From Parafrankia irregularis (lineage in GTDB: Bacteria; Actinomycetota; Actinomycetes; Frankiales; Frankiaceae): a stretch of DNA of 64,000 bases. The stretch's first letter is position 1. Every line of letters begins with the position of its first letter. Positions 2,894-56,612 of this stretch are shown in pieces. The stretch covers positions 199,360 through 263,359 of the forward strand of contig NZ_FAOZ01000007.1 of the NCBI RefSeq assembly GCF_001536285.1, given 5' to 3'. Under the pieces are notes generated by a model. The model searched no databases. It saw only the letters and a list, made by a program, of their open reading frames with translations, and was not told the DNA's origin. The position numbers and the translations under genes are program-made.

Positions 2894-2917
2894 CACCACT
2901 CGACTGCGCTAGCACCA
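2885..2917. repeat. 14-bp direct repeat duplicating the ligase stop region
   Basis: CTGCGCTAGCACCA occurs at 2885-2898 and again at 2904-2917 (period 19). The first copy contains the TAG stop of the ligase gene. A second short duplication, CGCCTCCAGAAA, follows at 2950-2961 and 2967-2978, just before the mutase start. These look like local slippage duplications in the spacer. Confidence 0.8.
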
Positions 2918-2991
2918 TGTGAACAGGGCAAGCCGAGGTGTCTGGTTCCCGCCTCCAGAAAACTCCGCCTCCAGAAAGCAACGAAGCGACG

Positions 2992-4569
2992 ATGAGCGAT
3001 TCTGTCCAGACCAATTCCGGCCTGCCGGTCAGTCCGGTGTACGGCCCCGCCGACCGCGGGGCCGAGCCACCGGAGCCGGGCCGCTTCCCCTTCACCCGCG
3101 GCAACTACGCCAAGGGGTACCGGGGGCGCACGTGGACCTTCCGCCAGTACTCCGGCTTCGGCACCGCTGAGGAGTCCAACAGCCGGTACCGCTACCTGCT
3201 CGACCAGGGCGGGACGGGCCTGTCGGTGGCGCTCGACCTGCCCACCCAGTGCGGGTACGACTCCGACGACCCGGAGGTGACCGAGGAGGTCGGCCGGGTC
3301 GGCGTCGCCGTCGACACGCTCGCCGACGCCGAGGTGCTCTTCGACGGCATCCCGCTGGACAAGATCAGCACCAGCTTCACCATCAACGGCACCGCCGCGA
3401 TCCTGCTGGCCTTCTACGTGGCCGCCGCGGAACGTTCCGGGGTGCCCCGGTCGAAGCTGACCGGCACGATCCAGAACGACATCCTCAAGGAGTACGCCTC
3501 CCGCGGGACGTGGATCTGGCCGCCGACGCCGTCGCTGCGCCTCATCGCCGACACCATCGAGTTCTGCGCCGCCGAGGTGCCGCGCTTCAACGCCATCTCG
3601 GTGGCCGGCGCGCATTTCCGCGACGCCGGCGCCAACGCGGTGCAGGAGATGGCCTTCACCCTCGCTGACGGAGTCACCTACTGCGACACCGTGATCGAGC
3701 GCGGGCGCCTGACGATCGAGCAGTTCGCCCCGCAGGTCTCCTTCTTCTTCTACACCCACGGCGACTTCTTCGAGGAGATCGCCAAGTACCGGGCCGGCCG
3801 CCGGCGCTGGGCGACCATCGTGCGCGAGCGGTACGGCGCGACCGCCGACAAGGCGTCGATGTTCCGCTTCGGCTGCGTCGCCGGCGGTGCCTCGCTGTAC
3901 GCGCCGCAGGCGCAGAACAACATCGTGCGGGTGGCCTACGAGGCGATGGCCTCGGTGCTCGGCGGCGTCCAGTCGATGTTCACCGCCGCCTGGGACGAGC
4001 CGTTCGCGCTGCCCAGCGAGGAGTCGGCGACCCTCGCCCTGCGCACCCAGCAGATCCTCGCCCTGGAGACCGGCGTCACCCGCACCGCGGACCCGCTCGG
4101 CGGCTCCTACTTCGTCGAGGCGCTCACCGACGCCACCGAGGCCCGCATCGTCGAGATCATGGACGACCTCGAGGCGCACGGCGGCATGGTCCGCTGCATC
4201 GAGGACGGCTACCTGCAGGGCCTGATCGCCGACGAGGCCTACCAGCTGCACAAGGACATCGAGGACGGCACGGTGCCCATCGTCGGGGTGAACCGGTTCG
4301 TCGCCGACGAGCCGGCACCCGACCTGGCCACCTACGAGCTGGACGCCGACGGGCGTGAACGACAGCTGAAGCGGCTGGCGAAGGTGAAGGCCGAGCGGGA
4401 CGGCGCCGCCGTGCGGGCCAGCCTCGACGCGCTCGCCCGCGCCGCCGAGGGAGACGGGAACCTGATGCACAACCTGATCGACTGCGCCAACGCCTACTGC
4501 ACGGTCGGCGAGATGGTCGCCGCCCTCAAGGCGGTCTGGGGCGAGTTCCAGCAGCCGGTGGTGTTCTGA
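2992..4569 (+). CDS. B12-dependent acyl-CoA mutase large subunit, divergent (methylmalonyl-CoA mutase family)
   Basis: A 525-residue catalytic subunit of the methylmalonyl/isobutyryl-CoA mutase family. It lacks the B12 domain, which is encoded next. The family core is clear: RTWTFRQYSGFGTAEESN, TGTIQNDILKEY, ISVAGAHFRDAGA and QAQNNIVR. Aligned by eye to Propionibacterium MutB it keeps Tyr89 (here Y53), Gln197 (Q161), Arg207 (R171) and His244 (H208), the pattern for carboxyl-bearing substrates. It has Ala207 for Tyr243, Gly294 for His328, Val296 for Gln330 and Ala300 for Trp334. The pocket therefore looks enlarged and differs from MCM, ICM and 2-hydroxyisobutyryl-CoA mutase. ATG 2992 was chosen; a GTG at 2938 would add 18 low-complexity residues. 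The substrate is unknown; an alkyl- or aryl-substituted succinyl/malonyl-CoA is a hypothesis. Confidence 0.9.
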   Translation: MSDSVQTNSGLPVSPVYGPADRGAEPPEPGRFPFTRGNYAKGYRGRTWTFRQYSGFGTAEESNSRYRYLLDQGGTGLSVALDLPTQCGYDSDDPEVTEEVGRVGVAVDTLADAEVLFDGIPLDKISTSFTINGTAAILLAFYVAAAERSGVPRSKLTGTIQNDILKEYASRGTWIWPPTPSLRLIADTIEFCAAEVPRFNAISVAGAHFRDAGANAVQEMAFTLADGVTYCDTVIERGRLTIEQFAPQVSFFFYTHGDFFEEIAKYRAGRRRWATIVRERYGATADKASMFRFGCVAGGASLYAPQAQNNIVRVAYEAMASVLGGVQSMFTAAWDEPFALPSEESATLALRTQQILALETGVTRTADPLGGSYFVEALTDATEARIVEIMDDLEAHGGMVRCIEDGYLQGLIADEAYQLHKDIEDGTVPIVGVNRFVADEPAPDLATYELDADGRERQLKRLAKVKAERDGAAVRASLDALARAAEGDGNLMHNLIDCANAYCTVGEMVAALKAVWGEFQQPVVF

Positions 4570-4970
4570 TGCCGGCCCGGGTTCTCGTCGCCAAGCCCGG
4601 CCTGGACGGGCACGACCGCGGCGCGAAGATCATCGCGCGTACGCTGCGGGACGCCGGTTTCGAGGTCGTGTTCACCGGCATCCGCCAGCGCATCGAGGAC
4701 ATCGTCACGATCGCGCTGCAGGAGGACGTGGCGCTGGTCGGCCTGAGCATCCTCTCCGGCGCGCACATCGCGCTGACGACCCGCACCATCGAGGCGCTGC
4801 GGGCGGCCGACGCGGGCGACATCGCGGTCGTGGTCGGCGGCACCATCCCGCCGGCGGACGTCCCGAAGCTGCTGGAGGTCGGCGCCGCCGCGGTGTTCCC
4901 GACCGGCACCTCGCTCGACGAGGTGGTCACCCGGGTCCGGGAGCTGACGGCGGCGGCCACCACGCCCTGA
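4569..4970 (+). CDS. cobalamin-binding small subunit of acyl-CoA mutase
   Basis: A 133-residue stand-alone B12-binding domain. It has the DxHxxG signature (GLDGHDRG, residues ~14-21) whose His is the lower axial cobalt ligand, the SxL segment (LSILSGAH) and the VVGGTIP glycine loop that holds the nucleotide tail. The length matches the small subunits of archaeal-type two-subunit mutases. Its ATG shares one base with the stop of the large subunit (TGATG), which fits 1:1 synthesis. It should form the adenosylcobalamin-bearing half of the mutase. The MeaB-type chaperone that would load or protect the cofactor lies 18 kb downstream at 23166. Confidence 0.93.
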   Translation: MPARVLVAKPGLDGHDRGAKIIARTLRDAGFEVVFTGIRQRIEDIVTIALQEDVALVGLSILSGAHIALTTRTIEALRAADAGDIAVVVGGTIPPADVPKLLEVGAAAVFPTGTSLDEVVTRVRELTAAATTP

Positions 4971-4980
4971 CGCCGGCCCC

Positions 4981-5016
4981 GCCCCCGGCATCGGCGCGCG
5001 CCGCCGCGCCGGGGGC
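4981..5016 (+). terminator. possible GC-rich hairpin after mutase genes
   Basis: GCCCCCGGC (4981-4989) pairs with GCCGGGGGC (5008-5016) across an 18-base GC-rich loop, ten bases after the small-subunit stop. No T-tract follows. It may be a partial terminator or an mRNA-stabilising hairpin before the oxidoreductase gene. Confidence 0.4.
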
Positions 5017-5125
5017 GGCCGCGCCGCCGCGGGCCGTAACGCGGTCAGGCCGCGTGGCCGCACGGCAGCGCGCGAGCGCGACATCGACGTAACCAGATCG
5101 GACGTAACGAGAACCGGAGGGTCCA

Positions 5126-6082
5126 GTGCGGGTCGGCGTGATGATCGGACCGGAGCGGGGTGACTCCGCGCGCAAGGTCGGGCGGATGATCGACGACGTC
5201 CTGTGGGCCGAGGGCGCGGGGATGGACACAGCCTGGATCCCCCAGGTGCCCTCCGACTTCGACGCGCTCATCGCGGTCGCCCTGATGGGTGCCCGCACCG
5301 AGCGGATCGAGCTCGGCACGGCGGTCGTCCCGCTGCAGCCGCAGCACCCGATCGCGCTCGCGCGCCAGACCCTGTCGGCGCAGGCGGCCACCGGTGGGCG
5401 GCTCGCCCTCGGTGTCGGGCCGTCGCATCACTGGATCGTCCGCGACATGCTCGGCCTGCCCTACGACAGGCCGGCCGGGTTCACCCGCGACTACCTCGAG
5501 GTCCTCAGGGCCGCGCTGAGCGGGCCGGGGCCGGTGGACGTCGAGAACGGCACGTTCACCGTCCACAACCCGATGGAGATCGGGCCGGTCGCCCCGCTGC
5601 CGGTGTTCCTCGCCGCGCTCGGGCCGGTGATGCTGCGCATCGCCGGTGAGCAGGCCGACGGCACCGTGCTGTGGCTCGCCGACGAGCGTGCCGTCGGCGA
5701 GCACGTGGTGCCCCGGATCACCAAGGCGGCGGCCGAGGCCGGCCGCCCGGCGCCGCGGATCGTCGCCGGCATCCCGGTGTGCCTGTGCGCGCCGGGGGAG
5801 GAGGACACCGCGCGGGAGCGGGCGAACCGCATCCTCGGCGAGGCCGAGGTCTCCCCGAACTACCAGCGGCTGCTCGACCAGGGCGACGCGACCAACGTCG
5901 GGGACATCGCCGCGGTCGGCGACGAGGCGGCCATCCTGGCGGCCTTCCGGCGGTTCGCCGACGCCGGCTGCACCGACCTGTCGGTGCGGCTGCTGCCCAT
6001 CGGTGACAACCGCGACGAGCTGATCGCCTCCAAGCGGCGGACCCGGGAAGTGATCGCGGCCCTCGCGGCGGAAGTCAGATGA
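5126..6082 (+). CDS. LLM-class (luciferase-like) F420- or flavin-dependent oxidoreductase
   Basis: A 318-residue single-domain TIM-barrel protein of the bacterial luciferase-like monooxygenase fold, of the type that in actinobacteria usually uses coenzyme F420. Family marks are the N-terminal MRVGVMIGPERG, the SDFDALIAVALMGARTERIELGT block, the HPIALARQTLSAQ helix, GGRLALGVG and PVFLAALGPVMLRIAGE. GTG 5126 has an excellent ribosome site (GGAGG, 5116-5120). The stop overlaps the CoA-transferase start (ATGA). F420 enzymes of this class reduce or oxidise C=C, alcohols or imines; a redox step on the CoA pathway intermediate is inferred from context only. Confidence 0.88.
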   Translation: MRVGVMIGPERGDSARKVGRMIDDVLWAEGAGMDTAWIPQVPSDFDALIAVALMGARTERIELGTAVVPLQPQHPIALARQTLSAQAATGGRLALGVGPSHHWIVRDMLGLPYDRPAGFTRDYLEVLRAALSGPGPVDVENGTFTVHNPMEIGPVAPLPVFLAALGPVMLRIAGEQADGTVLWLADERAVGEHVVPRITKAAAEAGRPAPRIVAGIPVCLCAPGEEDTARERANRILGEAEVSPNYQRLLDQGDATNVGDIAAVGDEAAILAAFRRFADAGCTDLSVRLLPIGDNRDELIASKRRTREVIAALAAEVR

Positions 6083-9646: not shown

Positions 9647-10228
9647 ATGCGGGGCCGAATGCGCGCAGGCCTGACCGCGGTCCTGGCCGCGGTGGCGCTC
9701 CTCATGCTGGTCGCGTGTGGCTCCTCGGACGAAAGCGGCAGCGGCGACGGCTCGTTTCTCGATCCCGGCTCGGACGGCGGTGTCTCGACCGATCCGGGAG
9801 CTGGCTCCGGCGACGGATCCACCTCCGCCTCGGGCGACGACGGCAGGACCTACACGCTCTCGGTCAGCACCGAGGGAGGCGAGGTCCTCGTCGAATCCTC
9901 CCGAGGGACGGTCCGGTGCCCGCCGAACTGCACGTTCCAGGTGGCGTCCGGGCGGCAGATAACACTTGTCGCGACGGAGCCCACCTCCGAGGTCTTCGGC
10001 CGGTGGGAGGTCACCGGCGCGGGGCGGGGCAGGGACACCTGTGCGGGCACACGATCCCTCTCGTGCACGATCACGATCACCGGTGATGTGACCGCGCTGG
10101 CCCGCTACGGCGCGCAGCCGGACCCGGTCACGGAGCCGGAGGACACCACGGGCCCGGACCAGGCGTCGACGTCCGGTTCCGATGCGAGCCAGGAGCCGGG
10201 GGCGTCAACGACGTCGCAGCATGGCTGA
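9647..10228 (+). CDS. secreted lipoprotein with InlB/Listeria-Bacteroides-like repeat domain
   Basis: 193 residues. The N-terminus is a lipoprotein signal: MRGRMRAGL, a hydrophobic core, then LMLVAC, where the Cys (~residue 25) would be lipidated. A Ser/Gly/Asp-rich linker follows. Residues ~65-150 resemble the divergent InlB B-repeat (bacterial_repeat) fold: LSVSTEGGEVL, then GTVRCPPNCTFQVASG, ITLVATEP and a closing ITGDVTALARYG, with two Cys pairs (CPPNC, CAGT...SC) that could form disulfides. The tail is Thr/Ser/Asp-rich. ATG 9647 has a strong ribosome site (GGAGGAA). The stop overlaps the TIR-STAND start by eight bases. Function unknown; it would be the extracytoplasmic component of the three-gene unit. 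Confidence 0.82.
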   Translation: MRGRMRAGLTAVLAAVALLMLVACGSSDESGSGDGSFLDPGSDGGVSTDPGAGSGDGSTSASGDDGRTYTLSVSTEGGEVLVESSRGTVRCPPNCTFQVASGRQITLVATEPTSEVFGRWEVTGAGRGRDTCAGTRSLSCTITITGDVTALARYGAQPDPVTEPEDTTGPDQASTSGSDASQEPGASTTSQHG

Positions 10229-13200
10229 CGGGAACCGGATCTTTCTCAGCTATGCGGAGGCCGACCGCGAGTGGGTGGCCGGCTACCTGACGCCCGCTCT
10301 CGGGCTGCGCGCCGACCAGGTGCTCACCGCCGACCAGTTTCCACCGGGCGAGCCGGTTGTCACCGCGTTCGAACAGGCGGTTCTCAGCAGCCGCGCCACC
10401 GTGGTGGTGCTGACTCCGGCGTACCTGACCGACAGATGGGCTCTGCTCGCGGAGCTGCTGGCTTCCTACCAGGACATCGCCGCCGCCGACAGTGCCGGTC
10501 CCAGTGCCCGGGTCGTCCCGGTGCTGCGGGAGCCGTGCGACATCCCGCTGCGCGTCGGCTTCCGGGTCCGGCTCGACTTCACCGATCGCGGCCGCTGGGA
10601 GGCACAGGCCGCCCGGCTGCGGGCGTTCCTCGCCCAGCCGGAGCCACCGGCGGCCGAGGAGATCCGCTGCCCCTACCCGGGCCTGGCTCCGTTCGGCCGA
10701 ACGCACACCCGGTTCTTCCACGGTCGTGATCGCGAGATCTCCGACCTGCGTCGGCGCGTGCGGTCGCAACCGTTCACCCTGGTGGTCGGTCCGTCCGGCT
10801 CGGGTAAGTCATCGCTGGTCCTCGCCGGTCTGGTGCCCCGGCTCGGCGCAGACCCGGACCGGTGGCTGGTGCGGACGCTGCGGCCAGGCGCGGCGCCGAT
10901 GTCAGCCCTCGCCGCGGCGCTGGAGCTCACGCGGCGGGGGCCAGCCGCGCAGCTGTCGGTACCGGCCGCCTCGGCGGTGGCAGGTCTGCTTGCCGGCCGG
11001 TTGCCCTCCGACGGTGAGGTGCTCTCCGACGGTGAGGTGCCCTCCGACGGCGAGGTGCCCTCCGACGGCGAGGTGCGGCCGGCGGGCCGGCTGCTGCTCG
11101 TCGTCGACCAGTTGGAGGAGGTGTTCGCCCAGGCACCGGCGGACGCCCGGGCCGCCTTCCTGGCCACGCTCGTCGAGCTGCGCGGCGTCGAGTCCTGCCG
11201 GGTGGTCGCGACGGTGCGGGCGGACTTCTACCCGGAGCTGATGACCAGCCCACTGTGGCCGCTCGACCTGGGCGAACGAGTCGAGATCGCGCCGCTGCGA
11301 GGGGCGCCGCTGCGTGAGGCGATCGTTCGGCCGGCCGGCGACGTCGGCGTCCACGTGGACCGGGGCCTGGTCGAACGCCTGATCGCCGACGCGGCGGACG
11401 AGCCGGGCTCGCTGCCGCTGGTGCAGGAGACGATGGCCACCCTGTGGGACGAGCGGGACCGCCGGCTGCTCACCCTCGCCGCCTACGATCAGCTGGGCAC
11501 CGACGGGCGCGGGGGCCTCGCCGCCGTGCTCGCCATCCGCGCGGACGGGGTGCTGGCCGGGCTGACCCCGGCGCAGCGTGCCGTCGTCCGCCGGGTTCTG
11601 CTGCGCCTGGTCCAACCGGGCGACGGCCGTGGCGACACGCGCCGTCAGCAGCCGGTGTCCGCGCTGCGGGCTGTTGACGAGGATCCGGCGGTGTTCGATG
11701 TCGTCCTCGCCCGACTGCTCGATGCCCGGCTGCTGACGCCGAGTGGTGACAACAGCGGAGCGGAGCGGTGCGTCGACCTCGCGCACGAGGCCCTCATCGC
11801 GGGCTGGCCGATGCTGCGCCAGTGGATCGACACGGCCCGCCAGGACCTGCTCGTCGCGCGGGCGCTGGCCCGCGACGCCGAGCAGTGGTCGACCGGTGGC
11901 CGCGACGACAGCGACCTCTACCGGGGGGCTCGGCTCGCCGTCGCCGCGGACTGGGCCACGGCGAACAGCACGGAGCTCAACCGGCTCGAACGGGACTTCC
12001 TCCACGCCGGTCAGGCCCGCCAGGCCGGTGAGCTCGCGGCAGCGCGGCGCACCAACCGGCGGCTGCGCTGGTTCGCGCGGGGACTTGCCGCGTTCCTGAC
12101 GCTGGCGATCGCCGCGTCGGGGCTGGCGGTCGCGCAGTCGGTGCGGGCTGGCAGGCAGGCCGATCTGGCCGCCGTGCAGAGCCGCGCGGCGCTGTCGCGC
12201 CAGCTCGCCGCCCAGGCGGTCGCGGCCCAGAGCAGCCAGGTCTCCCGAGCGCTCCTGCTCGCGGCCCAGGCCTCCCGCGTGGACGACACGGCCGAGGCGT
12301 ACAGCGCGCTGCTGTCCACGCTGCAGAACAGTGACCCACGCCTGGTCAGCGTCCTCGCCGGCAGCGGCGCCGGCGGATCGGCCGGCGTCACCGGACCCGT
12401 CGGTGCCGGTGTGCCAGTCCGCGCGGTCGCGGTCAGCCCGGACGGGCGAACGGTGGCGACCGGCTCCGAGACGGGCACGGTGACCTGGTGGGACGCCGAC
12501 CGTCAGCGCCCCGCGGGTGCCACGGCGAGCGACCAGCGAGACGCGATCCAGGCCCTGGCCTTCAGCCCGGACGGCCGGACTCTCGCCTCGGGCAGCCTCG
12601 ACGGCACGACCCAGCTGTGGGACGTGGCCGGTGGGCGCCCGCTCGGACCGCCGCTGCGTGCCGCGCAGGACTCGGTGTGGGCCGTCGCGTTCGGCCCGGG
12701 CGGCGCCGTCCTGGCGGTCGGCGGCGGAGCCCGCGACGGCCAGAGCGCGGGTGGCCAGAGCGCGGGCGGGGTGGTCACGGTCTGGGATGTGGCCCGGCGC
12801 GCGCCGGTCGACTCCTTCGAGATGGCCGGCGGCAGGCCGGTGGCCGCCGTCGCGTTCAGTCGCGACGGCGCCGCGCTCAGCGCGGCCGGCCTGGACGGGG
12901 CGGCGAGCATCCGGGACCTGGCCTCGCACCGCACCCGGGTCGCCCAGCCCCCCGTGGGAAGCTTCACCGCGGCCGCGCTGGGGGCCGACGGACGGATGCT
13001 CGCGCTTGGCACCGGCACAGGCCTGGTCGAGATGTGGGACATCACGGCGGAGCGGCAGCTGCTGCCCCTGCGTGCCGACCATCTGGACCTGGTGGAGGAC
13101 GTCGCGGTCAGCTCCGACGGCCGGCTCGTCGCCGCCGGCGGCGTGAACCACACGGTCGTCGTCTGGGACACCACCACCGGCAGCATGGTCGGCGACCCGC

Positions 13201-14327
13201 TGCGCGGGCACGCGGCAGGCCTGGAGTCGGTCGCCTTCGGCCCGGACGGGCGCACCGTCGTCTCGGGGGACGGGGGCGGCAGCGCGATCCACTGGGACCT
13301 CACCGGCCGGCCGGGCGGGCGGGCACCGCTGACCGGCCACCGGGCAGCGGTGTGGGGCCTGTCCGCGAGCCCGGACGGGCGCCTGCTCGCCACCTCCTCC
13401 GACGACGGCACCGTCATGCTCTGGGACGTCCGCGGTGGACGTGGGCGCGCCGTGTTCCACGGCAGCGGGCAGACGCAGGCGCTGGCGTTCACGCCGGACG
13501 GCCGCTGGCTGGCTGTCGGCCAGGGCGGAGCCGTCGCCCTGTGGGAGGTGGCGGGCGACCACACGGTCCGAGCGCTGCCGACGGGGACGACGGCGGGCAC
13601 GACGGCCCTCGCCGTCGGCCCGGACGGCCGCTGGCTCGCGGCGGGCACCAGCGACCGCGCCGTACTGCTGTGGGATCTGTCCGAGGCCCACCCCGTCGGC
13701 CGGCGCCTGCCCCCGCACACCGGCATGGTCACCGGGCTGGCGTTCAGCCCCGACGGGCGCATGGTGGCCTCCACCGGTCTGGACGGCATCGTCGCGCTGT
13801 GGGACGTCGGCGCCGGCCGGTCCGCCGGCACGTTGGGCGGTGTGGGTGATGCCAGCCTGCAGAGCCTCGCCTTCGACCCGGCCGGTCGGATCCTCGTGAC
13901 CGGCGACGAGCACGGCACCATCAGCAGCTGGGACGTGGCCCGCCGGCAGCCCCGGCAGAGCGCGCTCGCGGCGCACTCGGGGCCGGTGTACGGCGTCGCC
14001 ATCAGCTCTGACGGGCGCACCGCCGCGACCGGCGGTGGGGACGGTCTGATCGTGCTGTGGCGGCGCGACGACGCGGGCCGATGGTCCCGCCTCGACGAGC
14101 CGCTGCGGGGGCACACCGGCGCGGTCACCAACGTCGTGTTCGGTCCCGACGGCCGCACCCTCGTCTCGGCGAGCTTCGACGGCACGGCCCGCCAGTGGGA
14201 CGTCGATCCCGAGTCGTGGCGGCGGCGCGCCTGCGCGATCGCCAACCGCGACCTGACCCGCACAGAATGGAGCCAGTTCGTGGGCGAGAACCTCAGCTAC
14301 GAGTCGACCTGCGGGTTCACCCGGTGA
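10221..14327 (+). CDS. TIR - nSTAND NTPase - transmembrane - WD40 (14 repeats) protein
   Basis: 1368 residues. Residues 1-140 form a TIR domain (NRIFLSYAEADREWV, VVVLTPAYLTDRW, with candidate catalytic Glu in ALLAEL). Residues ~155-600 form an nSTAND1-type NTPase: FHGRDREISDL, Walker A GPSGSGKSSL (~190) and Walker B LLLVVDQLEEVF (~290). Four tandem SDGEV-type repeats precede Walker B. One transmembrane helix lies near 615-635 (LAAFLTLAIAASGLAVAQ), followed by an Ala/Gln-rich helical stalk. Residues ~725-1340 contain 14 WD40 units, enough for two seven-bladed propellers. TIR-STAND proteins are associated with NAD-cleaving defence or signalling. ATG 10221 overlaps the lipoprotein stop, and the stop overlaps the next TIR gene, so the three are coupled. 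The cytoplasm/membrane arrangement is inferred. Confidence 0.9.
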   Translation: MADGNRIFLSYAEADREWVAGYLTPALGLRADQVLTADQFPPGEPVVTAFEQAVLSSRATVVVLTPAYLTDRWALLAELLASYQDIAAADSAGPSARVVPVLREPCDIPLRVGFRVRLDFTDRGRWEAQAARLRAFLAQPEPPAAEEIRCPYPGLAPFGRTHTRFFHGRDREISDLRRRVRSQPFTLVVGPSGSGKSSLVLAGLVPRLGADPDRWLVRTLRPGAAPMSALAAALELTRRGPAAQLSVPAASAVAGLLAGRLPSDGEVLSDGEVPSDGEVPSDGEVRPAGRLLLVVDQLEEVFAQAPADARAAFLATLVELRGVESCRVVATVRADFYPELMTSPLWPLDLGERVEIAPLRGAPLREAIVRPAGDVGVHVDRGLVERLIADAADEPGSLPLVQETMATLWDERDRRLLTLAAYDQLGTDGRGGLAAVLAIRADGVLAGLTPAQRAVVRRVLLRLVQPGDGRGDTRRQQPVSALRAVDEDPAVFDVVLARLLDARLLTPSGDNSGAERCVDLAHEALIAGWPMLRQWIDTARQDLLVARALARDAEQWSTGGRDDSDLYRGARLAVAADWATANSTELNRLERDFLHAGQARQAGELAAARRTNRRLRWFARGLAAFLTLAIAASGLAVAQSVRAGRQADLAAVQSRAALSRQLAAQAVAAQSSQVSRALLLAAQASRVDDTAEAYSALLSTLQNSDPRLVSVLAGSGAGGSAGVTGPVGAGVPVRAVAVSPDGRTVATGSETGTVTWWDADRQRPAGATASDQRDAIQALAFSPDGRTLASGSLDGTTQLWDVAGGRPLGPPLRAAQDSVWAVAFGPGGAVLAVGGGARDGQSAGGQSAGGVVTVWDVARRAPVDSFEMAGGRPVAAVAFSRDGAALSAAGLDGAASIRDLASHRTRVAQPPVGSFTAAALGADGRMLALGTGTGLVEMWDITAERQLLPLRADHLDLVEDVAVSSDGRLVAAGGVNHTVVVWDTTTGSMVGDPLRGHAAGLESVAFGPDGRTVVSGDGGGSAIHWDLTGRPGGRAPLTGHRAAVWGLSASPDGRLLATSSDDGTVMLWDVRGGRGRAVFHGSGQTQALAFTPDGRWLAVGQGGAVALWEVAGDHTVRALPTGTTAGTTALAVGPDGRWLAAGTSDRAVLLWDLSEAHPVGRRLPPHTGMVTGLAFSPDGRMVASTGLDGIVALWDVGAGRSAGTLGGVGDASLQSLAFDPAGRILVTGDEHGTISSWDVARRQPRQSALAAHSGPVYGVAISSDGRTAATGGGDGLIVLWRRDDAGRWSRLDEPLRGHTGAVTNVVFGPDGRTLVSASFDGTARQWDVDPESWRRRACAIANRDLTRTEWSQFVGENLSYESTCGFTR
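11004..11075. repeat. four 18-bp tandem repeats in the STAND domain gene
   Basis: Four near-identical 18-bp units (consensus CCCTCCGACGGYGAGGTG) run in frame and encode PSDGEV/LSDGEV four times just before the Walker B strand. Variation in copy number between strains would change a loop of the NTPase. Confidence 0.95.
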
Positions 14328-40272: not shown

Positions 40273-41001
40273 TCAGAGGGCCCTGCGGGTGATCGTCCAC
40301 TCGTAGCGACGGCCCTGTGGGCTGGGGTCTCGCCACTCCACGACCCACTCGCCGGTTTCTGAGCGGTCGGGGCCTTTGACGGTCCCGTATCCGTTGCGTT
40401 CGGTGACACCTGGCTTGAAGCCCGGGTCGGCGAAGACGAACGTGATCGTGAAGTCGGTCAGCGGCGATCTGCCGTTGGACGGCATGATGTCGTTCCAGAC
40501 AAGGCGGTCGCGGTCCTTCTCGCGTAGTTCGTTCCAGAGACCGCGCGGCCGGTACCAGAAACGCCAGACCGTGGGTTTGGTCAGGGTCGGGGTGAAGATG
40601 AGCCAGATCTGCAGGTACTCCTGGTGGAGCATCGGCCGGGCCCGTACGAGCACCTGCCCGTCGTCGCTCTCGTCCACCGAGCAGTCGAACTCGATGTCAC
40701 GCAGGCGGTCGGGCCGGCGCCAGTGGTACGGCATGATCGGCCTGATCAGCCGGTTCACAACCTGCGAGTTCGGCGTGACATGAACCTCCTCCTCCACCCG
40801 GTCGTCGTCCTTGGTCCGCCCGATCGTGATCCTGACGTGGACGACCTCGTCGTGGGGCGCGGCCTGGCGGGTGACCACGTCCTCGATATCGCAGATAACG
40901 TCCTCCGTGGACGTCGAATCTTTCACCCGGGAAATCCGGTAGTAGTTCGAGAAGGTGTAGACGAGATATAGTGTCAAGAGCGCTGTAATTGCGCGCAGCA
41001 C
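40273..41001 (-). CDS. membrane-anchored protein of unknown function
   Basis: 242 residues from GTG 41001. One transmembrane helix near the N-terminus (ITALLTLYLVYTFSNYY) is followed by a soluble, charged beta-rich domain (DEVVHVRITIGRTKDDD, WLIFTPTLTKPTVWRFWYRP, WTITRRAL). No family is recognised. The same frame stays open to 41118 and reads as another hydrophobic segment (DAAAFLFTVGGGVSSLAGLT) without any ATG, GTG or TTG, so the true N-terminus may be longer by up to 39 codons via a rare start or a frameshift. It is convergent with the CoA-transferase operon and otherwise isolated. Confidence 0.75.
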   Translation of the reverse strand: MLRAITALLTLYLVYTFSNYYRISRVKDSTSTEDVICDIEDVVTRQAAPHDEVVHVRITIGRTKDDDRVEEEVHVTPNSQVVNRLIRPIMPYHWRRPDRLRDIEFDCSVDESDDGQVLVRARPMLHQEYLQIWLIFTPTLTKPTVWRFWYRPRGLWNELREKDRDRLVWNDIMPSNGRSPLTDFTITFVFADPGFKPGVTERNGYGTVKGPDRSETGEWVVEWRDPSPQGRRYEWTITRRAL

Positions 41002-42441: not shown

Positions 42442-43092
42442 TTACAGGGAGGCGACGGCCTCGGGATCGCCCTGGATCTCCACCTGGGCAGCCGAGCGCC
42501 GCCCGAACGCGTGCAGCAGAATTTCCTCCGGCACCCCGGAGATGATCACTGTCGGGGTGCCGCGGCGCAGGACCCGCCGGGCGCCGGTGTCGGTGCGCTC
42601 GGCGATCACCTCCGCGCTGGTGCCGCGGTACCCGGTGCGCCCGAGCAGCCGCAGCGCCGACCAGACGCGCTCCCGCGACACGGGGTCGAGCGCCCGCGGG
42701 GTGAAGCCCGGGACGGCGCGGTCCACATCGGCGTAGTGGACGTAGAACTCGTTGACATTGGTCGCGTCGTCGAAGCGGCGCAGCCGGGACGGGTTCCACC
42801 GCGCGGGCCCGCTTCGGAACAGTCCCACCAGCTCCGCGAAGCTGTGCGCCTGCCCCGTCGAGCGCTCGGCACGCTCGGTGACGCCGTGCAGGGCGGGGAT
42901 CACCAGGCCAGGCCCGGCGCGGGGGACGCGCTCGCGGGTCACGAGGTGGGCGACGAGGTCGTGGGTCGTCCAGCCGGTGCACAGCGTCGGCCGCTCCGGC
43001 CCGACCTCGGTGAGCAGATCGGCCAGCAGGGCCCGCTCGACCCGCGCCCGGCCGGTTCCGCCGGCGGAACCGGCCGCTTCCTCAGACGACAT
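42442..43092 (-). CDS. TIGR03085-like metal-binding protein (maleylpyruvate isomerase/DinB fold)
   Basis: 216 residues. The N-terminal half matches the DinB/MDMPI-like actinobacterial family: RVERALLADLLTEVGPERPTLCTGWTTHDLVAHLV, with His in the metal-binding helices. The C-terminal half (TVIISGVPEEILLHAFGRR, VEIQGDPEAVASL) fits the family's second domain. These proteins are related to mycothiol-dependent enzymes. The ATG lies 11 bp inside the ohr gene, so it is likely co-transcribed with ohr and may serve thiol or peroxide metabolism. Confidence 0.85.
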   Translation of the reverse strand: MSSEEAAGSAGGTGRARVERALLADLLTEVGPERPTLCTGWTTHDLVAHLVTRERVPRAGPGLVIPALHGVTERAERSTGQAHSFAELVGLFRSGPARWNPSRLRRFDDATNVNEFYVHYADVDRAVPGFTPRALDPVSRERVWSALRLLGRTGYRGTSAEVIAERTDTGARRVLRRGTPTVIISGVPEEILLHAFGRRSAAQVEIQGDPEAVASL

Positions 43093-43498
43093 TGAGGTCG
43101 ACCTCCACGTTGCCGCTGATGGCGTTCGAGTACGGGCAGACTCCATGCGCCTGCTGGACGAGCGTCTCGGCCGTCGCGCGGTCGAGATTGGGGATGTGGA
43201 CGTCGAGCTCGACCGCGAGACCGAACCCGCCGGTGGGCAGGGTTCCGAGGGACACGCTGGCGGAGACCTGCGACCCCTCCAGGTCGGCGGAAGCGGACTG
43301 GCCGACGAGCTTGAGCGCGGAGTGGAAGCAGGCGGCGTAGCCGGCGGCGAACAGCTGCTCGGGATTGGTGGCGCCGCCGGGGCCGCCCATCTCCTTGGGG
43401 ATCCGGACGTCGACGTTGAGCAGGCCGTCCTCGCTCTCGGTGTGGCCGTTGCGGCCGTCCCCGGAGGCGGTTGCGATCGCCGTGTAGAGAGCATCCAT
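43082..43498 (-). CDS. ohr: organic hydroperoxide resistance protein Ohr
   Basis: 138 residues of the OsmC/Ohr fold with the two reactive cysteines in AAGYAACFHSAL and HGVCPYSNAI. N-terminal TAIATASGDGRNGHTES and NPEQLFAAGYAACF are Ohr-type. It reduces organic and lipid hydroperoxides with a dithiol donor. ATG 43498 has GGGAGGAG upstream. It is divergent from a MarR/OhrR gene, with a 35-bp operator-like palindrome between. Confidence 0.95.
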   Translation of the reverse strand: MDALYTAIATASGDGRNGHTESEDGLLNVDVRIPKEMGGPGGATNPEQLFAAGYAACFHSALKLVGQSASADLEGSQVSASVSLGTLPTGGFGLAVELDVHIPNLDRATAETLVQQAHGVCPYSNAISGNVEVDLNVV

Positions 43499-43518
43499 GA
43501 TCTTTCGGCTCCTCCCGG

Positions 43519-43553
43519 TTAGATTGTGGCCAACAGTATTGCGCACAATCTAA
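43519..43553. promoter_or_regulatory. OhrR operator
   Basis: TTAGATTGTG (43519-43528) and CACAATCTAA (43544-43553) are exact 10-bp inverted arms separated by 15 bases. The element fills the gap between ohr and ohrR and ends on the first base of the ohrR ATG. Confidence 0.8.
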
Positions 43554-44032
43554 TGACGCAAGAGGTGTCTGCTACTGTCGATCGTGTGGCGGACCGCGTA
43601 CCCCAGCTGGAGCTGGGCAACCAGCTCTGCTTCGCGCTGTACGCCGCGAGCCGGGCCACGACCCGCGCCTACGGGCCGGAGCTGGCCGAGCTCGGCCTCA
43701 CCTACCCGCAGTACCTGACCATGCTCGTGCTGTGGGAGGCGTCCGAGCCGCTCGCGGTCGGTGACATCGGCGCCCGGCTGCACCTCGACAGCGGCACTCT
43801 CACCCCGCTGCTCAAACGCCTCGAGGACCTCGGCCTGGCCACCCGCAGCCGCGACCGGGCGGACGAGCGCCGCGTCCTCATCGCCCTGACCGGGCCCGGG
43901 CGGGAGCTGCGGGCGCGGGCGGCGGAGGTTCCGCTGCGCCTCTTCCAGCGCTACGGCATCGACATCGACACCGCCCAGAAGCTCATCCGAGACCTCACGG
44001 CGCTCACAGAGTCACTCCAGGCCTCGACCTGA
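43553..44032 (+). CDS. ohrR: MarR-family regulator OhrR
   Basis: 159 residues. The conserved peroxide-sensing Cys is in NQLCFALYAASRA near the N-terminus, followed by the MarR winged helix: LTYPQYLTMLVLWEASEPLAVGDIGARLHLDSGTLTPLLKRLEDLGL and the wing RSRDRADERRVLIALT. Oxidation of the Cys releases the repressor from the ohr promoter. ATG 43553 is the first start after the operator; GTGs at 43526, 43565 and 43586 are alternatives. Confidence 0.92.
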   Translation: MTQEVSATVDRVADRVPQLELGNQLCFALYAASRATTRAYGPELAELGLTYPQYLTMLVLWEASEPLAVGDIGARLHLDSGTLTPLLKRLEDLGLATRSRDRADERRVLIALTGPGRELRARAAEVPLRLFQRYGIDIDTAQKLIRDLTALTESLQAST

Positions 44033-44555
44033 GCCGCCGGCCGCACTGTCACGCGGACCGCTCGGGCGTTGCGAAAGCGGCATCGTCGAGCCCGGAGGAC
44101 GGTCCGCATCGGCGTGCTACTGATGCTGGTGGCGATACCGGTCGGCCAGATCGGTGATGCGGTCGAGTCGTCCGGACTCTGCCATCCACCGACATCTGAG
44201 CGGGCCGGGGGGCGTGCCACTGCGGAATCGCGCTTACCCCGCCGGCCGGGGTATCCCAGGCCGCCGGGTCGGAGCGGCCTGCCCGGCATGCCTCCCCCCA
44301 TCCTGATGGACTGGGAATGCTGCATGCAGAACATCTTCCGGCGACCAGGACAACGGTCGGTCGACCCGGTGCGGGGACTGCGGCCTTCGGTATGCCCAGA
44401 CGAGGCTGTCGAGCACCATATCCGTATGCTTCCGGAACCGAGAAGGTCAGACGGCGGCGGCGGCGACCGGGAACACGGTGAATCTGTAGGTGCCCCGTAT
44501 AGAGGTCCGGGTAACCCTGACCTGCGCTGTCGGCTGACCGTCGCCTTGAGGAGTG
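44033..44555. other. 523-bp gap at the left side of a lower-GC patch
   Basis: No convincing gene. Composition shifts toward AT relative to flanks, and continues so through the nuclease gene. No repeats or att-like sequences could be recognised at its edges. Confidence 0.6.
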
Positions 44556-46142
44556 ATGAGTGGAGCTGGCGTGAGCAGGCCACACGAGGATGCGATAAGG
44601 GACGCCCTGGCGCTCCGCCTCGATCTTGTCGAGAAAGGCCTGAGATGCCTGGCAACCGAGTATCGGATCCAGAGCGGGGTCGGGGCGGGTGGCCGTATAG
44701 ATATTCTCGCGAGGGACTCTACCGGCTGTTATGTGATCATCGAACTGAAGCGCACCGACTCTGCGGCGCGAACTGCCCTGCACGAGCTGCATAAATACGT
44801 GGAACTCTTCCGGCGGGAGAGGGGGCTGGGTGATGCCGACCTGCGTGTGGTTGTGGTGGCGGTCGAGTGGCACGAACTCCATCTGGCCTTCAGCCAGGCG
44901 GCTCGTGAATGGGATGCGGACCTTCGAGGATACCGCCTCGTGCTGGAGGGTGACGGTGTGACGCCAGTCGCTGTCGAGCAAATTAAGCCGTTGTCGGAAA
45001 CGACCGTGCGTAGTCTGACGCCGGTGCAACTTCTCGTTCAATCCAGAACCGGTGACCTCGATGCTGTCTGGCGGTGGATGGTCGAGAACCTTCGGGTGTT
45101 CGGCGCCCACAGTTTCGTCGGATTCGACGTCGCTCACCCCGTCTACGACAATGGAATATACCTCGTTCTGGGCCGCATGAATTCGGTTCTGACGGGTCGG
45201 ACGAACCGGGTAGTGGGCGGCGGAGGGATCTTCGATGGTGAGTTCCCGTACGACGAGGCTGTGGTTGGCGCCTCGGATGCCCCGCCGGGCTACGAGATCG
45301 AGTACGAGGCGCTGGTGCGGCTGTGCTCCTCCCCGGTTCCATTCGTTCTGGAAAGCGGCCACCCCCACGCTCTGTCGCAGCTCGTCAGTGATCCCGACTG
45401 GTCGGTCGGAGCCCCACGCCGTGCCGGTGTATACGAGGACGAACTACTCTTCCCGAAGGAAGATCTCGTTCTCGAATCCACGGCGGGAGGGCTTTCTGAC
45501 GTCAAGTTCACCGGTGTGGCGTGCGCGGATCACGCCGCGCGATGGACGCGCTGTCTCGAACGCATCGACTTCGCCCTCTCGGCAAACCCGACATGGGCTC
45601 CGATCGTTGCGGCGTGGTGCCAGGAGTTGGCGGATCGCAGCCCGCGCACCAATCTGATCGCGCGTGTCTACAATCCCTGTGACTTTCCGGCGACGGTGGC
45701 GTTTGGGTGGCCGGGGCGCATCAACGACTTCATGCCGATGCTGCGATGCGTCGCCGCCGCGCCGGGCCAGCCGCGCCGGTCTCTGTACGGCGGTCTCATG
45801 GCCTACGACAGGGGCATGGATCCGCCCAGCGCCTTCGAACTGTCCTTCGGTACTGTAGAAAAGTGGGTCATCGCTCGCAACGCCGGCCTGGCCTGGCAGT
45901 TGGACGAGCACTTTTTGCGCCTACTCGGCCTGAGGTATGCGGTCTTCGAGGTGATCGGCCGTGAGACATCGCGCCGTTTTCTCGACATGGACGACGGTGC
46001 GCTGGTCCGGCGGCAATCAGCGGCAGTCAACGGCAGACCCGGAAGCGGAACCTTCGGCGAGTGGCTCGACCGGCATCAACGCACCTTGTCGCTGCTCGCA
46101 ACCAGAATTCGATATGACCTGGGAATTCCCGAGCCAGACTGA
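44556..46142 (+). CDS. NucS/DUF91-like PD-(D/E)XK nuclease-domain protein
   Basis: About 528 residues. Residues ~5-140 resemble the C-terminal nuclease domain of NucS/EndoMS: the N-terminal helix EDAIRDALALRLDLVEKGL, then GGRIDILARDSTGCYVIIELKR with the Asp and ExK catalytic triad, and YVELFRRERGLGDADLRVVVVAV. The remaining ~380 residues contain no recognised domain. A DNA-cleaving role in repair or defence is plausible. The start is not certain: ATG 44556 is very close to GAGGAG, and GTG 44571 has a better spaced GGAG. Codon use is less GC-biased than neighbours, suggesting horizontal acquisition. Confidence 0.83.
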   Translation: MSGAGVSRPHEDAIRDALALRLDLVEKGLRCLATEYRIQSGVGAGGRIDILARDSTGCYVIIELKRTDSAARTALHELHKYVELFRRERGLGDADLRVVVVAVEWHELHLAFSQAAREWDADLRGYRLVLEGDGVTPVAVEQIKPLSETTVRSLTPVQLLVQSRTGDLDAVWRWMVENLRVFGAHSFVGFDVAHPVYDNGIYLVLGRMNSVLTGRTNRVVGGGGIFDGEFPYDEAVVGASDAPPGYEIEYEALVRLCSSPVPFVLESGHPHALSQLVSDPDWSVGAPRRAGVYEDELLFPKEDLVLESTAGGLSDVKFTGVACADHAARWTRCLERIDFALSANPTWAPIVAAWCQELADRSPRTNLIARVYNPCDFPATVAFGWPGRINDFMPMLRCVAAAPGQPRRSLYGGLMAYDRGMDPPSAFELSFGTVEKWVIARNAGLAWQLDEHFLRLLGLRYAVFEVIGRETSRRFLDMDDGALVRRQSAAVNGRPGSGTFGEWLDRHQRTLSLLATRIRYDLGIPEPD

Positions 46143-46693
46143 GTCCGGTCCTGCCCCTGCGTGATGCCGCGTGATAGCACGTTCACCCGAGACCGGACGC
46201 GTTGCCCACCCGAACGGCGAGATATGGCCGGCCCCGCGGCCGGGTAGATCGTCATGTACAGCGAGGGCAGCCTGGCGGCGTGGTATCCGGATGCCGCTGG
46301 GTCTGGTGGCCGGGCGCACGTCCGACAAGTTTCCGAGGTTCGGGGCCGCTGCGGACGATCTTGGTGATGATCGTCACCTCTTGGTCCGACGCCAGGGGCA
46401 GATTCGTCTCCGGTCCGGGCCGGCGCGACGGCTACTTCCTGACCTTCCCCGCCCGCTCTGGACAGTCCGGGAAAGTGCCGCTGTGCCCATGACCGGGCCG
46501 TCTTCAGGGGGTCGCGGGCGTCACCCGGTGGCGATCACGAGAGCTGGCCTCCAGACCGGGCCCGGTTGATGCCCGAACCACGGTGGGTCCGGCGACGGTG
46601 AAAAAGGTCCTTGCAATGGCCGGCATCCAGTCCGGTGCATCATCGGGATGAACCGGAAGGGTCTCTGCGCAGCAGTATCCGAAAGGCGGCGGC
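46143..46693. other. 551-bp gap, nothing recognised
   Basis: No frame with convincing codon use and no repeat or hairpin that I can support. It continues the less GC-biased patch begun near 44 kb. Confidence 0.6.
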
Positions 46694-47602
46694 ATGGCGG
46701 ATGACATGGACGCGACTCGCGCGCGCGACGGAGACCGAGGCCACCGGGCAGGAGGTGCCGGCCGCGGCGGGGCTGGAAAACGTGAGGCCGGAATCGGCGG
46801 TCGGCGGCTCGAGGTACGCGTCCAGCCGGACGTCACCTATGTGACCTGGTGGTTGGTGCCGCAGGGGGACGGACTTCGGCAGGCCATGACGGACGATTCC
46901 GCCTCCGGCCCCGCTGGTGGCATCCGGCCCGTCGGGTACGTCGCCGATGACAGCATGACGGCGAGCACCTGGTGGGCCTGGCCGATCCATCCCGACCGCC
47001 CCTACGACGGCGCTGCCGTCGGGCGCCTCCTGCTGGCAGCGTCCGACACCGTCGCAGCGTCGTTTCACGCAGGCCAGCTGATTCACGTTCGTGCACGCCA
47101 TCCGCGGCCCGGTGCGCGGCCCACGCCGGCCGGTGTCCTGGACGCACCGGCGGCGACCCCGGGCTGGCTGCCGGAGGCCGTGCGGGCATACCACCGCTGG
47201 CGGGCGGAGGGGCCGGTGATCGAGGCGCGGCACCGATGGCAGAGCGCGGTGGGGGCCTGTTCGGTCACCGCCGACGGCCGCGAACTGTGGTGCACGGGCA
47301 GCGGCTACCGGGACGAGATGCTGGCCGGTTTCGACGTCGAGCAGACCCCGGAACGGGTCACCGTCCGGGCCTGGCTCGCCTTCGGCCCGGACGGGCCGAC
47401 GTCCTTCGGCACGGGGCCGGTGCGGACCCTGCCGGACGGGCGCCGCCTGCGCGCGATGTGCCGCCAGGCCGCCAGCCGCCGGTGGAGCACCGTCGTGTAC
47501 CTCGACCAGCCGCTCGGTGGACGTCCAGTGGTCGATGTCGGCATCCCCGAACCTGACGGTGCCGGCCGGGCCCGCAGAGCCTGGCTCGCCGCGCGGGAAT
47601 GA
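46694..47602 (+). CDS. hypothetical protein
   Basis: 302 residues, no recognised family. The N-terminal ~40 residues are Arg/Gly-rich and disordered; the body has several Trp-rich strands (VTYVTWWLVPQG, STWWAWPIHPDRPYDG, RRWSTVVYLDQPLGG) and ends in an Arg/Ala-rich helix. ATG 46694 follows GAAAGG at a normal distance. No signal peptide or transmembrane helix is visible. It lies between the NucS-like gene and an SDR, all on the plus strand, and may belong to the same insertion as the nuclease. Confidence 0.75.
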   Translation: MADDMDATRARDGDRGHRAGGAGRGGAGKREAGIGGRRLEVRVQPDVTYVTWWLVPQGDGLRQAMTDDSASGPAGGIRPVGYVADDSMTASTWWAWPIHPDRPYDGAAVGRLLLAASDTVAASFHAGQLIHVRARHPRPGARPTPAGVLDAPAATPGWLPEAVRAYHRWRAEGPVIEARHRWQSAVGACSVTADGRELWCTGSGYRDEMLAGFDVEQTPERVTVRAWLAFGPDGPTSFGTGPVRTLPDGRRLRAMCRQAASRRWSTVVYLDQPLGGRPVVDVGIPEPDGAGRARRAWLAARE

Positions 47603-47660
47603 CCGCGCGGCGACAGGGGCGACAGGGGTGTCCGCTGCGTTCTCCTCGAAAGGAACTGTT

Positions 47661-48569: not shown

Positions 48570-50144
48570 TCAGGCGCGCAGCAGGGTGACGGGGCGGCCG
48601 GCGGGGCTGGTGACGGTGGTGATGGCCGTGCGCTCGGCGATGGGCGCGGCGTCGGGGCGGGTGTCGAAGATGACGAGTGTGCCGCGGTCGAGGCCGAGCC
48701 GTTCCAGGTAGCCGTCGAGTTGGAGCAGGCCCCGGGGGAGTGGATCGGTCTCCCGTTCCCGGCGGACCTTGAGCTCCAAGGCCTCCCGTTGCACCTCCCG
48801 CCGGCCGTCGGCCGCGGTGTGGGCCCAGCGGATGAGCAGGTCGATACGGCCACGGCCGATGCCGTACTCGCGTTCGACATAGCCGCCGCCATTGACGACC
48901 CGCTGCAGGAAGCCCATGAGTACCAGCTGGCAGGCTGCTTCGGGATAGCGGCGACCGGAGGCGAGGATCTCCCCGTTCTCGACCCAGAACCGGGCGAACT
49001 CGTCGAGCATCGTCGCCAGGTCGAACCGTCCGTCGGGCAGGACGAAGGCGCGGGGGTCGGCGAGGACGACCGCCTCGACGCCGTCGGTCAGGACCCGGGC
49101 GATGACCTCCTGGTAGATCGGGTTGGCGATCCGGACCGGGTTGGTGGGGGCGATGAGGCCCAGATCGCGGACGTAGGAGAGGTCGTCGTCGTAGGCGTCG
49201 AGGTTGACCACGGTGCCGGCGAGCACTGGTTCCAGCACCCGTCGGACGCGTGGCTGGGCGAGGGTGGCGGCGAGGGAGTCCAGGTGGGTGGCCCGGGCCA
49301 GGACGAGTCGTTCCTTCGCCTGCTCCACATGATCCAGGGCGATCGTCTCGATGGGGGGAACGGCGATCTCCTCGACGATCTCGCGGGCGAGCGCGTTGAC
49401 GAGCCACGGCTGGCCGCCAGTCAGCTCGAACGCCCGCGCGAGAGCGTCCTCGGTGAAGGCCTGCCCGGTCTCGTCCGTGTGCTGCTGGTAGAGGTCGTCG
49501 ACCTCGTCCGCCGTGAAGTCGCCGAGCCGCAGCGACTTCACCTTCACGTTGAACGGGCTCGCCGACCCGAGCCGATCCGGGCCGCCGCCCGAAGCGACCC
49601 GGTAGTCGCGGACGTCGCGCAGGCCGCACAGGACGACCGACGCTGGGAACACCTCCGGACGGTCGCCGAATCCGGCCCGCAGCTGTCGCAGAACACTGAT
49701 CAGGCTCGGTCCACGCAGCGCGTCGATCTCGTCGAAGAACAGCACGAGGGGGCGCGGGGACGCCCGCGCCCACGCGGACAGGGCCCGCCGGAGCGCGTTC
49801 TCCGCAGCCGGCTCCGGCCACGCCGGCGGACGAAGCTCCTCGGGCAGCGCCACCTCGGCCCGGTCGCGGATCTCCTGCAGAACACTCCGATCGGCAGCCC
49901 GGTAGTCGTCGCCCGCTGCCTCTCCGACCTCGCCGGAGAAATGCAGCGCGGTGTACTGCCCGGACGCGGTCAGCTCGGTGGCCAACGCGCGCAGGGCCGT
50001 CGTCTTCCCCGTCTGCGGTGGGGCGTGCACGACGAAGTAGGCGTCTTGCGCGACCAGCCTGGACGCCTCGGGCAGCCGCGACAGCGCCGGCACCATGTAG
50101 TGAAGATCAGGACGGCACGGACCGGCCGTGTTGAAACGCCGCAC
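48570..50144 (-). CDS. AAA-like ATPase fused to a PD-(D/E)XK nuclease domain
   Basis: About 524 residues. N-terminal RRFNTAGPCRPDLHYMVP is the hallmark start of the AAA-like ATPase group; Walker A APPQTGKTTALRAL (~41) and Walker B PLVLFFDEIDALRG (~135) follow. A helical middle region contains the winged-helix-like FELTGGQPWLVNALAREI. The C-terminus (~440-524) carries YGIGRGRIDLLIRW and REALELKVRRE, the D...ExK core of a PD-(D/E)XK nuclease. Such fusions are suspected mobile or defence NTPases. GTG 50144 was chosen from the family start and a GGAAGGGG ribosome site; GTG 50177 is the longer option. Confidence 0.87.
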   Translation of the reverse strand: MRRFNTAGPCRPDLHYMVPALSRLPEASRLVAQDAYFVVHAPPQTGKTTALRALATELTASGQYTALHFSGEVGEAAGDDYRAADRSVLQEIRDRAEVALPEELRPPAWPEPAAENALRRALSAWARASPRPLVLFFDEIDALRGPSLISVLRQLRAGFGDRPEVFPASVVLCGLRDVRDYRVASGGGPDRLGSASPFNVKVKSLRLGDFTADEVDDLYQQHTDETGQAFTEDALARAFELTGGQPWLVNALAREIVEEIAVPPIETIALDHVEQAKERLVLARATHLDSLAATLAQPRVRRVLEPVLAGTVVNLDAYDDDLSYVRDLGLIAPTNPVRIANPIYQEVIARVLTDGVEAVVLADPRAFVLPDGRFDLATMLDEFARFWVENGEILASGRRYPEAACQLVLMGFLQRVVNGGGYVEREYGIGRGRIDLLIRWAHTAADGRREVQREALELKVRRERETDPLPRGLLQLDGYLERLGLDRGTLVIFDTRPDAAPIAERTAITTVTSPAGRPVTLLRA

Positions 50145-50409
50145 CGGCCGCCCCTTCCGCCCAGCTCCTCCGATCACACTCCCGCCACTCTATGCAACCG
50201 TGTGGTGGGTGACGTAGATAGTCAACGCTGTTGACGCCCCCGGCTCACCTTTTTGATCTTGAAGGTCGGCAGGTGCGGGCACCGGGGTGGACGTGGCGCG
50301 CGGCGTGAGTCGCTGGGCGGGGGCAGGCCCATGACACTGGAAGGGTTCCTGCCGGGTAGGGCTCATGGCGCCGGCGACCGGCGCCGGCGACGAGAACCTG
50401 GGAGTGCCG

Positions 50410-56612
<6,203 letters not shown>

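Follow-up and report, generated by a model that had tools for sequence, protein, structure and literature searches.

A NucS-type nuclease with a large C-terminal domain in Parafrankia irregularis, a candidate accessory defence enzyme

A stretch of 64,000 nucleotides (hereafter the window) from the 9.5 Mb genome of Parafrankia irregularis contains a gene for a two-part protein, in which a nuclease domain of the EndoMS/NucS type is followed by a large C-terminal part (Table 1). We lean towards the view that its product is an accessory nuclease for defence, made of a single chain, in which the C-terminal domain would sense or select invading DNA. This view draws on the nuclease domain with its D, E and K residues, the sporadic distribution of the gene, the constraint on its sequence, its low GC and GC3, the defence genes found beside its relatives, and the mobile-element neighbours of the proteobacterial plasmid copies.

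Table 1. Features of the nuclease locus, in window coordinates.
Feature	Position	Strand	Evidence and remarks
OhrR-like MarR regulator	43526..44032	+	Left border of the variable site
Upstream gap, 523 nt	44033..44555	.	First 143 nt replaced by ~620 nt of other DNA in G004
Shine-Dalgarno-like GAGGAG	44548..44553	+	Sequence; 2 nt before ATG 44556 (close spacing)
NucS-type nuclease with large C-terminal domain	44556..46142	+	528 aa; ORF call, profile match, alignment, dN/dS
PD-(D/E)XK nuclease domain (NucS_C, residues 10-102)	44583..44861	+	Invariant D49, E63, K65, K80, Y81; aligns with EndoMS 5gke
C-terminal domain (~residues 141-528)	44976..46139	+	Conserved across two phyla; no fold assigned; G291, W347, G413, G458 invariant 11/11
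Downstream gap, 551 nt	46143..46693	.	Homology to G001 resumes at 46600
302-aa ORF, no function assigned	46694..47602	+	Right border of the variable site

The open reading frame spans 44553-46142 (+), with ATG 44556 as its most likely start; since the Shine-Dalgarno-like motif ends so close to this ATG, the true start may lie a few residues away. A chance reading frame is ruled out by the profile match, the cross-phylum homology and the dN/dS value. The first-pass annotation had placed the nuclease domain at the N-terminus, which agrees with the Pfam match to NucS_C (PF01939, E=1e-12, 48.6 bits against a cut-off of 24), and NucS_C was found in all eight members of a first alignment of relatives with both parts (A1; E up to 1). 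EndoMS and NucS were the only solved structures matched by the window protein in PDB sequence searches, at E up to 1 in one and up to 0.1 in another, the nuclease stretch aligning with the nuclease domain of EndoMS 5gke. Alignment A1 likewise matched EndoMS/NucS on its nuclease part, its three other matches to solved structures having E=0.11 or worse. In a later alignment of 11 sequences, R72 is invariant in all 11, as are the five nuclease residues listed in Table 1. We take D49, E63 and K65 to be the catalytic residues, in line with the PD-(D/E)XK fold and the 5gke alignment. The L004 row of A1 carries a non-homologous tail past a deletion junction, which was trimmed in alignments A3 and A5; A5 also excludes L005 and L050, whose copies are broken, L007, which represents the L009 type a second time, L012, whose gene does not differ from that of L010, and the plasmid records CP090109 and NZ_CP064935.

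The fusion to a large C-terminus, put earlier at about 380 residues, holds as well: some 390 residues follow the nuclease domain, and they match nothing in Pfam, NCBIfam, PHROGs or PADLOC at the thresholds used. A profile of four actinobacterial C-termini detects four of four proteobacterial ones above 1000 shuffles, the weakest of them at E=0.017 and 9.8 bits, where the best shuffle reached 2.5 bits. When one pair of C-terminus profiles, actinobacterial and proteobacterial, was compared with hhalign, the probability was 98.7 and E=4.5e-16. Taken with the two-part alignment, this cross-phylum match indicates that the two-part protein is one old family. Judged from its sequence, the C-terminus is a genuine, previously undescribed domain. 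Since both AlphaFold models are of low confidence (pLDDT 34.6 for the whole protein and 48.8 for the nuclease part), the role that we propose for this domain is inferred.

In NucS, a DNA-binding domain is followed by a C-terminal nuclease, according to the excerpted text of two papers (PMC5290159, PMC8228993). The window protein shares the nuclease domain family with EndoMS/NucS, but differs in the order of its parts. The opposite order of the housekeeping enzyme, asserted in the first-pass annotation, is borne out by the ordinary NucS of the same genome, which has its nuclease last (frame read by eye); the presence of this separate NucS also rules out a misread housekeeping gene. All six genomes of the genus have an ordinary NucS, whereas the nuclease gene described here is accessory, not core. 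The window protein falls short of the NCBIfam NucS equivalog cut-offs, with 51.5 bits against 216 and 24.1 bits against 252, and from this and the domain order we conclude that it is not NucS. A second, specialised DNA-repair nuclease could still be built in this way, its C-terminal domain reading a lesion or structure in host DNA, and the restriction genes nearby would then reflect the repair of restriction breaks. The closest characterised proteins by sequence are indeed EndoMS/NucS, and the gene is under constraint, but an ordinary NucS is already in place throughout the genus, the distribution of the gene is sporadic and the larger equivalog cut-off is far off; we therefore regard a repair function as rather unlikely. 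PMC5290159 already reports further domain architectures that contain the C-terminal region of NucS, so that fusions of this sort have appeared in print before. Among the matches listed from a mostly open literature, without supplementary files, there was no paper on the present architecture. The NCBI label 'endonuclease NucS domain-containing protein', carried by four of the nine plasmid records that match the window protein, names the domain and assigns no function.

Two other comparisons bear on a defence role. Shedu (SduA) is described, in the part of PMC12137116 that cites Gu et al. 2025, as one nuclease core combined with diverse regulatory domains, and DUF4263 as its signature domain, C-terminal in VcSduA. 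The likeness to the window protein is one of proposed working principle only. SduA_C (DUF4263) was not matched in the window protein by Pfam, and among eight relatives only one gave a match, at E=0.019; by this test the protein falls outside Shedu. Its nuclease stretch also matches the PADLOC models PDC-S11 and PDC-S18 weakly, with 5e-06 as the best value that the window protein reached, and PDC-S11 matches eight of eight family members at E up to 1. These matches cover at most residues 14-77 and 25-57 positions of models that are 347-379 long and leave the C-terminus unmatched, and PADLOC-DB 2.0.0 gave no full-length match for the family; that the models match weakly, and only part of the nuclease stretch, counts against the defence reading. 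By analogy, the best reading is that the protein would work like Shedu or a type IV restriction enzyme while standing outside both.

The gene is present in two of the six Parafrankia genomes and in three of 35 genomes of the family, the third copy being a frameshifted remnant (G227). In even draws from the class and the phylum, it was found in 3/393 and 1/396 genomes, the latter being the source genome itself (each of these four sets includes that genome). In the order of G383, 5/345 genomes have it. Relatives with both parts come from Streptosporangiales-type actinobacteria, Rhizobium, Acetobacter and Pseudoalteromonas. Six of the nine matching plasmid records are predicted to be conjugative or mobilizable, which raises the question of whether the nuclease serves mobile elements rather than the host, through plasmid competition, element maintenance or a homing-like activity. 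Neighbouring genes give this some substance, according to the deposited annotation of the proteobacterial loci: an integrase adjoins the gene in L010 and L012, L011 has transposases, and L008 is a 28-kb mobilizable plasmid with a RelE/ParE toxin gene, while a phage-type integrase is also present in the actinobacterial locus L087. On the other side, 50,697 phage records searched with two family members as queries gave no match, and neither did IMG/VR, in scans that start from short peptide patterns and detect close relatives only. The copies in G383 and G879 sit in contigs of more than 7 Mb and are therefore chromosomal. Altogether, service to mobile elements appears to us unlikely. In the same deposited annotation, a cytosine methyltransferase lies nearby in L012, and no clear mobile or restriction gene adjoins the nuclease gene in the L007/L009 loci. 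One neighbour protein in L010, the sole proteobacterial one scanned against PADLOC, gave no match.

The neighbourhoods of the actinobacterial relatives point towards defence. Six loci were found outside the window's family, all six were examined, and every one has a known or candidate defence gene no more than about 9 kb away. Three of them have type I restriction-modification, two a GmrSD-type gene and one PDC-M54A. In Micromonospora sp. CP22 (L005), HsdM, HsdS, HsdR and a YgjP-like gene stand in a row before the nuclease copy. In L086 (G810), HsdM, HsdS and HsdR directly follow the nuclease gene in the same direction, and in L077 (G383) it is followed by an N6 methylase, HsdM and a restriction subunit and preceded by an integrase-core transposase. 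The sole HsdM_N of G383 lies 2.2 kb from the nuclease gene and that of G810 0.4 kb. L088 (G1012) has two GmrSD_N proteins and matches to NsnA, PDC-M55B and PDC-M55C, and in L087 (G853), besides the integrase, there is a PDC-M28C match, with a GmrSD_N gene 3.4 kb away in the whole-genome count. L085 (G879), within which L006 (Nonomuraea gerenzanensis) lies entirely, encodes a 1663-aa PDC-M54A protein (941-5929, +; E=1.6e-174) some 3 kb ahead of the related nuclease gene; this protein also has a weak nSTAND3 match (E=0.00078). If positions were random, the chance of HsdM_N or GmrSD_N lying within 5 kb in at least four of the five genomes with G numbers would be 2.1e-9, and that of HsdM_N alone in at least two of five 2.1e-5; both values are rough, as some loci were already in view when the families were picked, and defence genes generally lie in clusters with accessory genes of other kinds.

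The window locus is different in this respect. None of ten near genes matches PADLOC at E<=0.001, and 40273-41001 has no PADLOC match, so that the window copy is without the defence context that its relatives have; this, together with the lack of HsdM_N in its own genome, counts against the defence reading. The first-pass annotation had spoken of a small acquired defence or anti-invader island. Acquisition is in keeping with an accessory gene of odd composition at a variable site, between ohrR and the 302-aa ORF, but no integrase, transposase or PADLOC-matching neighbour was found at the locus, so the 'island' amounts to one gene, and the defence role leans on the neighbours of relatives rather than on those in the window. 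Two further AAA/TIR-type observations belong to the wider window. An AAA ATPase (48570-50177, -; PF13191, E=8e-09) gave only mad8 at 0.0053 in PADLOC, and its C-terminal GRIDLLI...ELK stretch resembles PD-(D/E)XK when read by eye; copies occur elsewhere in the genome (C29, C11, C30, C12) and in G001, G004 and G005, at 66-74% DNA identity. A large ORF at 10203-14324 (+) matches PADLOC HEAT-ARM_XIII (E=3e-35, best stretch residues 882-1099) and has a TIR-like start.

The deviating base composition reported earlier is confirmed. The GC content of the nuclease gene is 62.9%, compared with 71.2% for the window, and only 0.06% of window positions begin a stretch of 1584 bp as low or lower; its GC3 is 0.72, compared with 0.83-0.92 in eight neighbouring genes. 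The gene does not stand alone in this, as 40.5-42.2 kb is also GC-poor (63-68%). With this composition, and with the gene in two of six genus genomes, the locus is neither syntenic in all relatives nor of core composition, the finding that would have spoken against acquisition. The gaps of about 0.5 kb noted on both sides of the gene are present (Table 1). They contain mechanical ORFs from the program-made list, of which six were scanned and gave no Pfam match at E<=0.01, and the upstream gap matched no plasmid record. No Rfam family was matched in the window, and flanking repeats, promoter and terminator patterns around the nuclease gene were nothing beyond chance. ARAGORN calls a tRNA-Val(gac) at 52938-53022 (+) inside a 1231-aa ORF (50365-54060), probably falsely; read by eye, this ORF is proline dehydrogenase/aldehyde dehydrogenase-like.

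To the left of the nuclease gene lies ohr-ohrR (43082-44032), and homologues of the 302-aa ORF on the right, some of them partial, occur in 10 of 35 family genomes, the source genome included. In G004, a genome of the same genus whose sequence agrees with that of Parafrankia sp. EUN1f where compared, the DNA matches the window at 94% up to the ohrR stop, beyond which 143 nt are swapped for about 620 nt. The match continues at 89% over 44176-46085, at 92% over 47185-47614 and at 95% from 50202 onward. From these blocks, the nuclease copy in G004 ends in a deletion, at a junction where the two flanking matches overlap by 13 nt; the SDR and AAA genes of the window are absent from G004 at this site. 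The replacing segment (L046 6786-7408) resembles part of a decayed regulator gene when read by eye. G001 lacks the nuclease gene, and there 17.5 kb occupied by other genes separate the ohrR block from the 302-aa-ORF block, compared with 2.6 kb in the window. By eye, the genes of this G001 interval (L043, C47:168500-186500) include one for a repeat protein of 1239 aa whose end is CHAT-like and one for a receptor-like protein of 1046 aa. No empty site is visible in G005, because its contig stops just past ohrR, or in G002 and G003, where ohrR matches extend over about 120 nt at most; ohrR joined directly to the 302-aa ORF was seen in none of the relatives compared.

Between the window copy and that of EUN1f (89-90% identity), dN/dS is 0.20 over 497 codons, with 0.09 in the nuclease domain and 0.24 in the C-domain, and the faster evolution of the latter fits a recognition module. 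The dS of the gene is 0.265, compared with 0.063-0.208 in seven flanking genes, and the nuclease gene has thus diverged more than its surroundings. These values bear on the idea that in Parafrankia the gene is a relic doing little, its low GC and decay being left over from an old transfer. The other Frankiaceae copies do look that way, one being truncated (EUN1f, which lacks the last codons) and one decayed (G227), and the copy in Micromonospora has a frameshift and is incomplete, with no match past query residue 289. The window copy, by contrast, has an unbroken frame up to a C-terminus that can be aligned with those of intact relatives, and its dN/dS indicates constraint, so a relic strikes us as quite unlikely.

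For the defence nuclease that we favour, the following course of events can be proposed. The C-terminal domain would recognise modified DNA, a particular DNA structure or a protein encoded by a phage or plasmid; this recognition would position or release the nuclease, which would then cut the invading DNA. The N-terminal recognition domain of housekeeping NucS would thus have been replaced by a different module at the opposite end. The GC-poor gene may have been transferred horizontally to the variable site downstream of ohrR before the split of the window strain and Parafrankia EUN1f, the latter later losing the 3' end of the gene. It is tempting to go further, although we hold this wider proposal to be possible rather than probable: the C-terminal domain may be a new invader-recognition module, extending from actinobacteria to proteobacteria, that makes a mismatch-repair-type nuclease into a stand-alone, restriction-like immune enzyme, a second layer beside type I restriction-modification and GmrSD against escaping phages. 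If the defence reading is right, one nuclease domain would serve either mismatch repair or immunity, depending on which recognition domain is joined to it, at opposite ends. A new specificity module would then have been found in the C-terminal domain, and the family would be a compact defence candidate of one gene, without a full-length match in PADLOC-DB 2.0.0.
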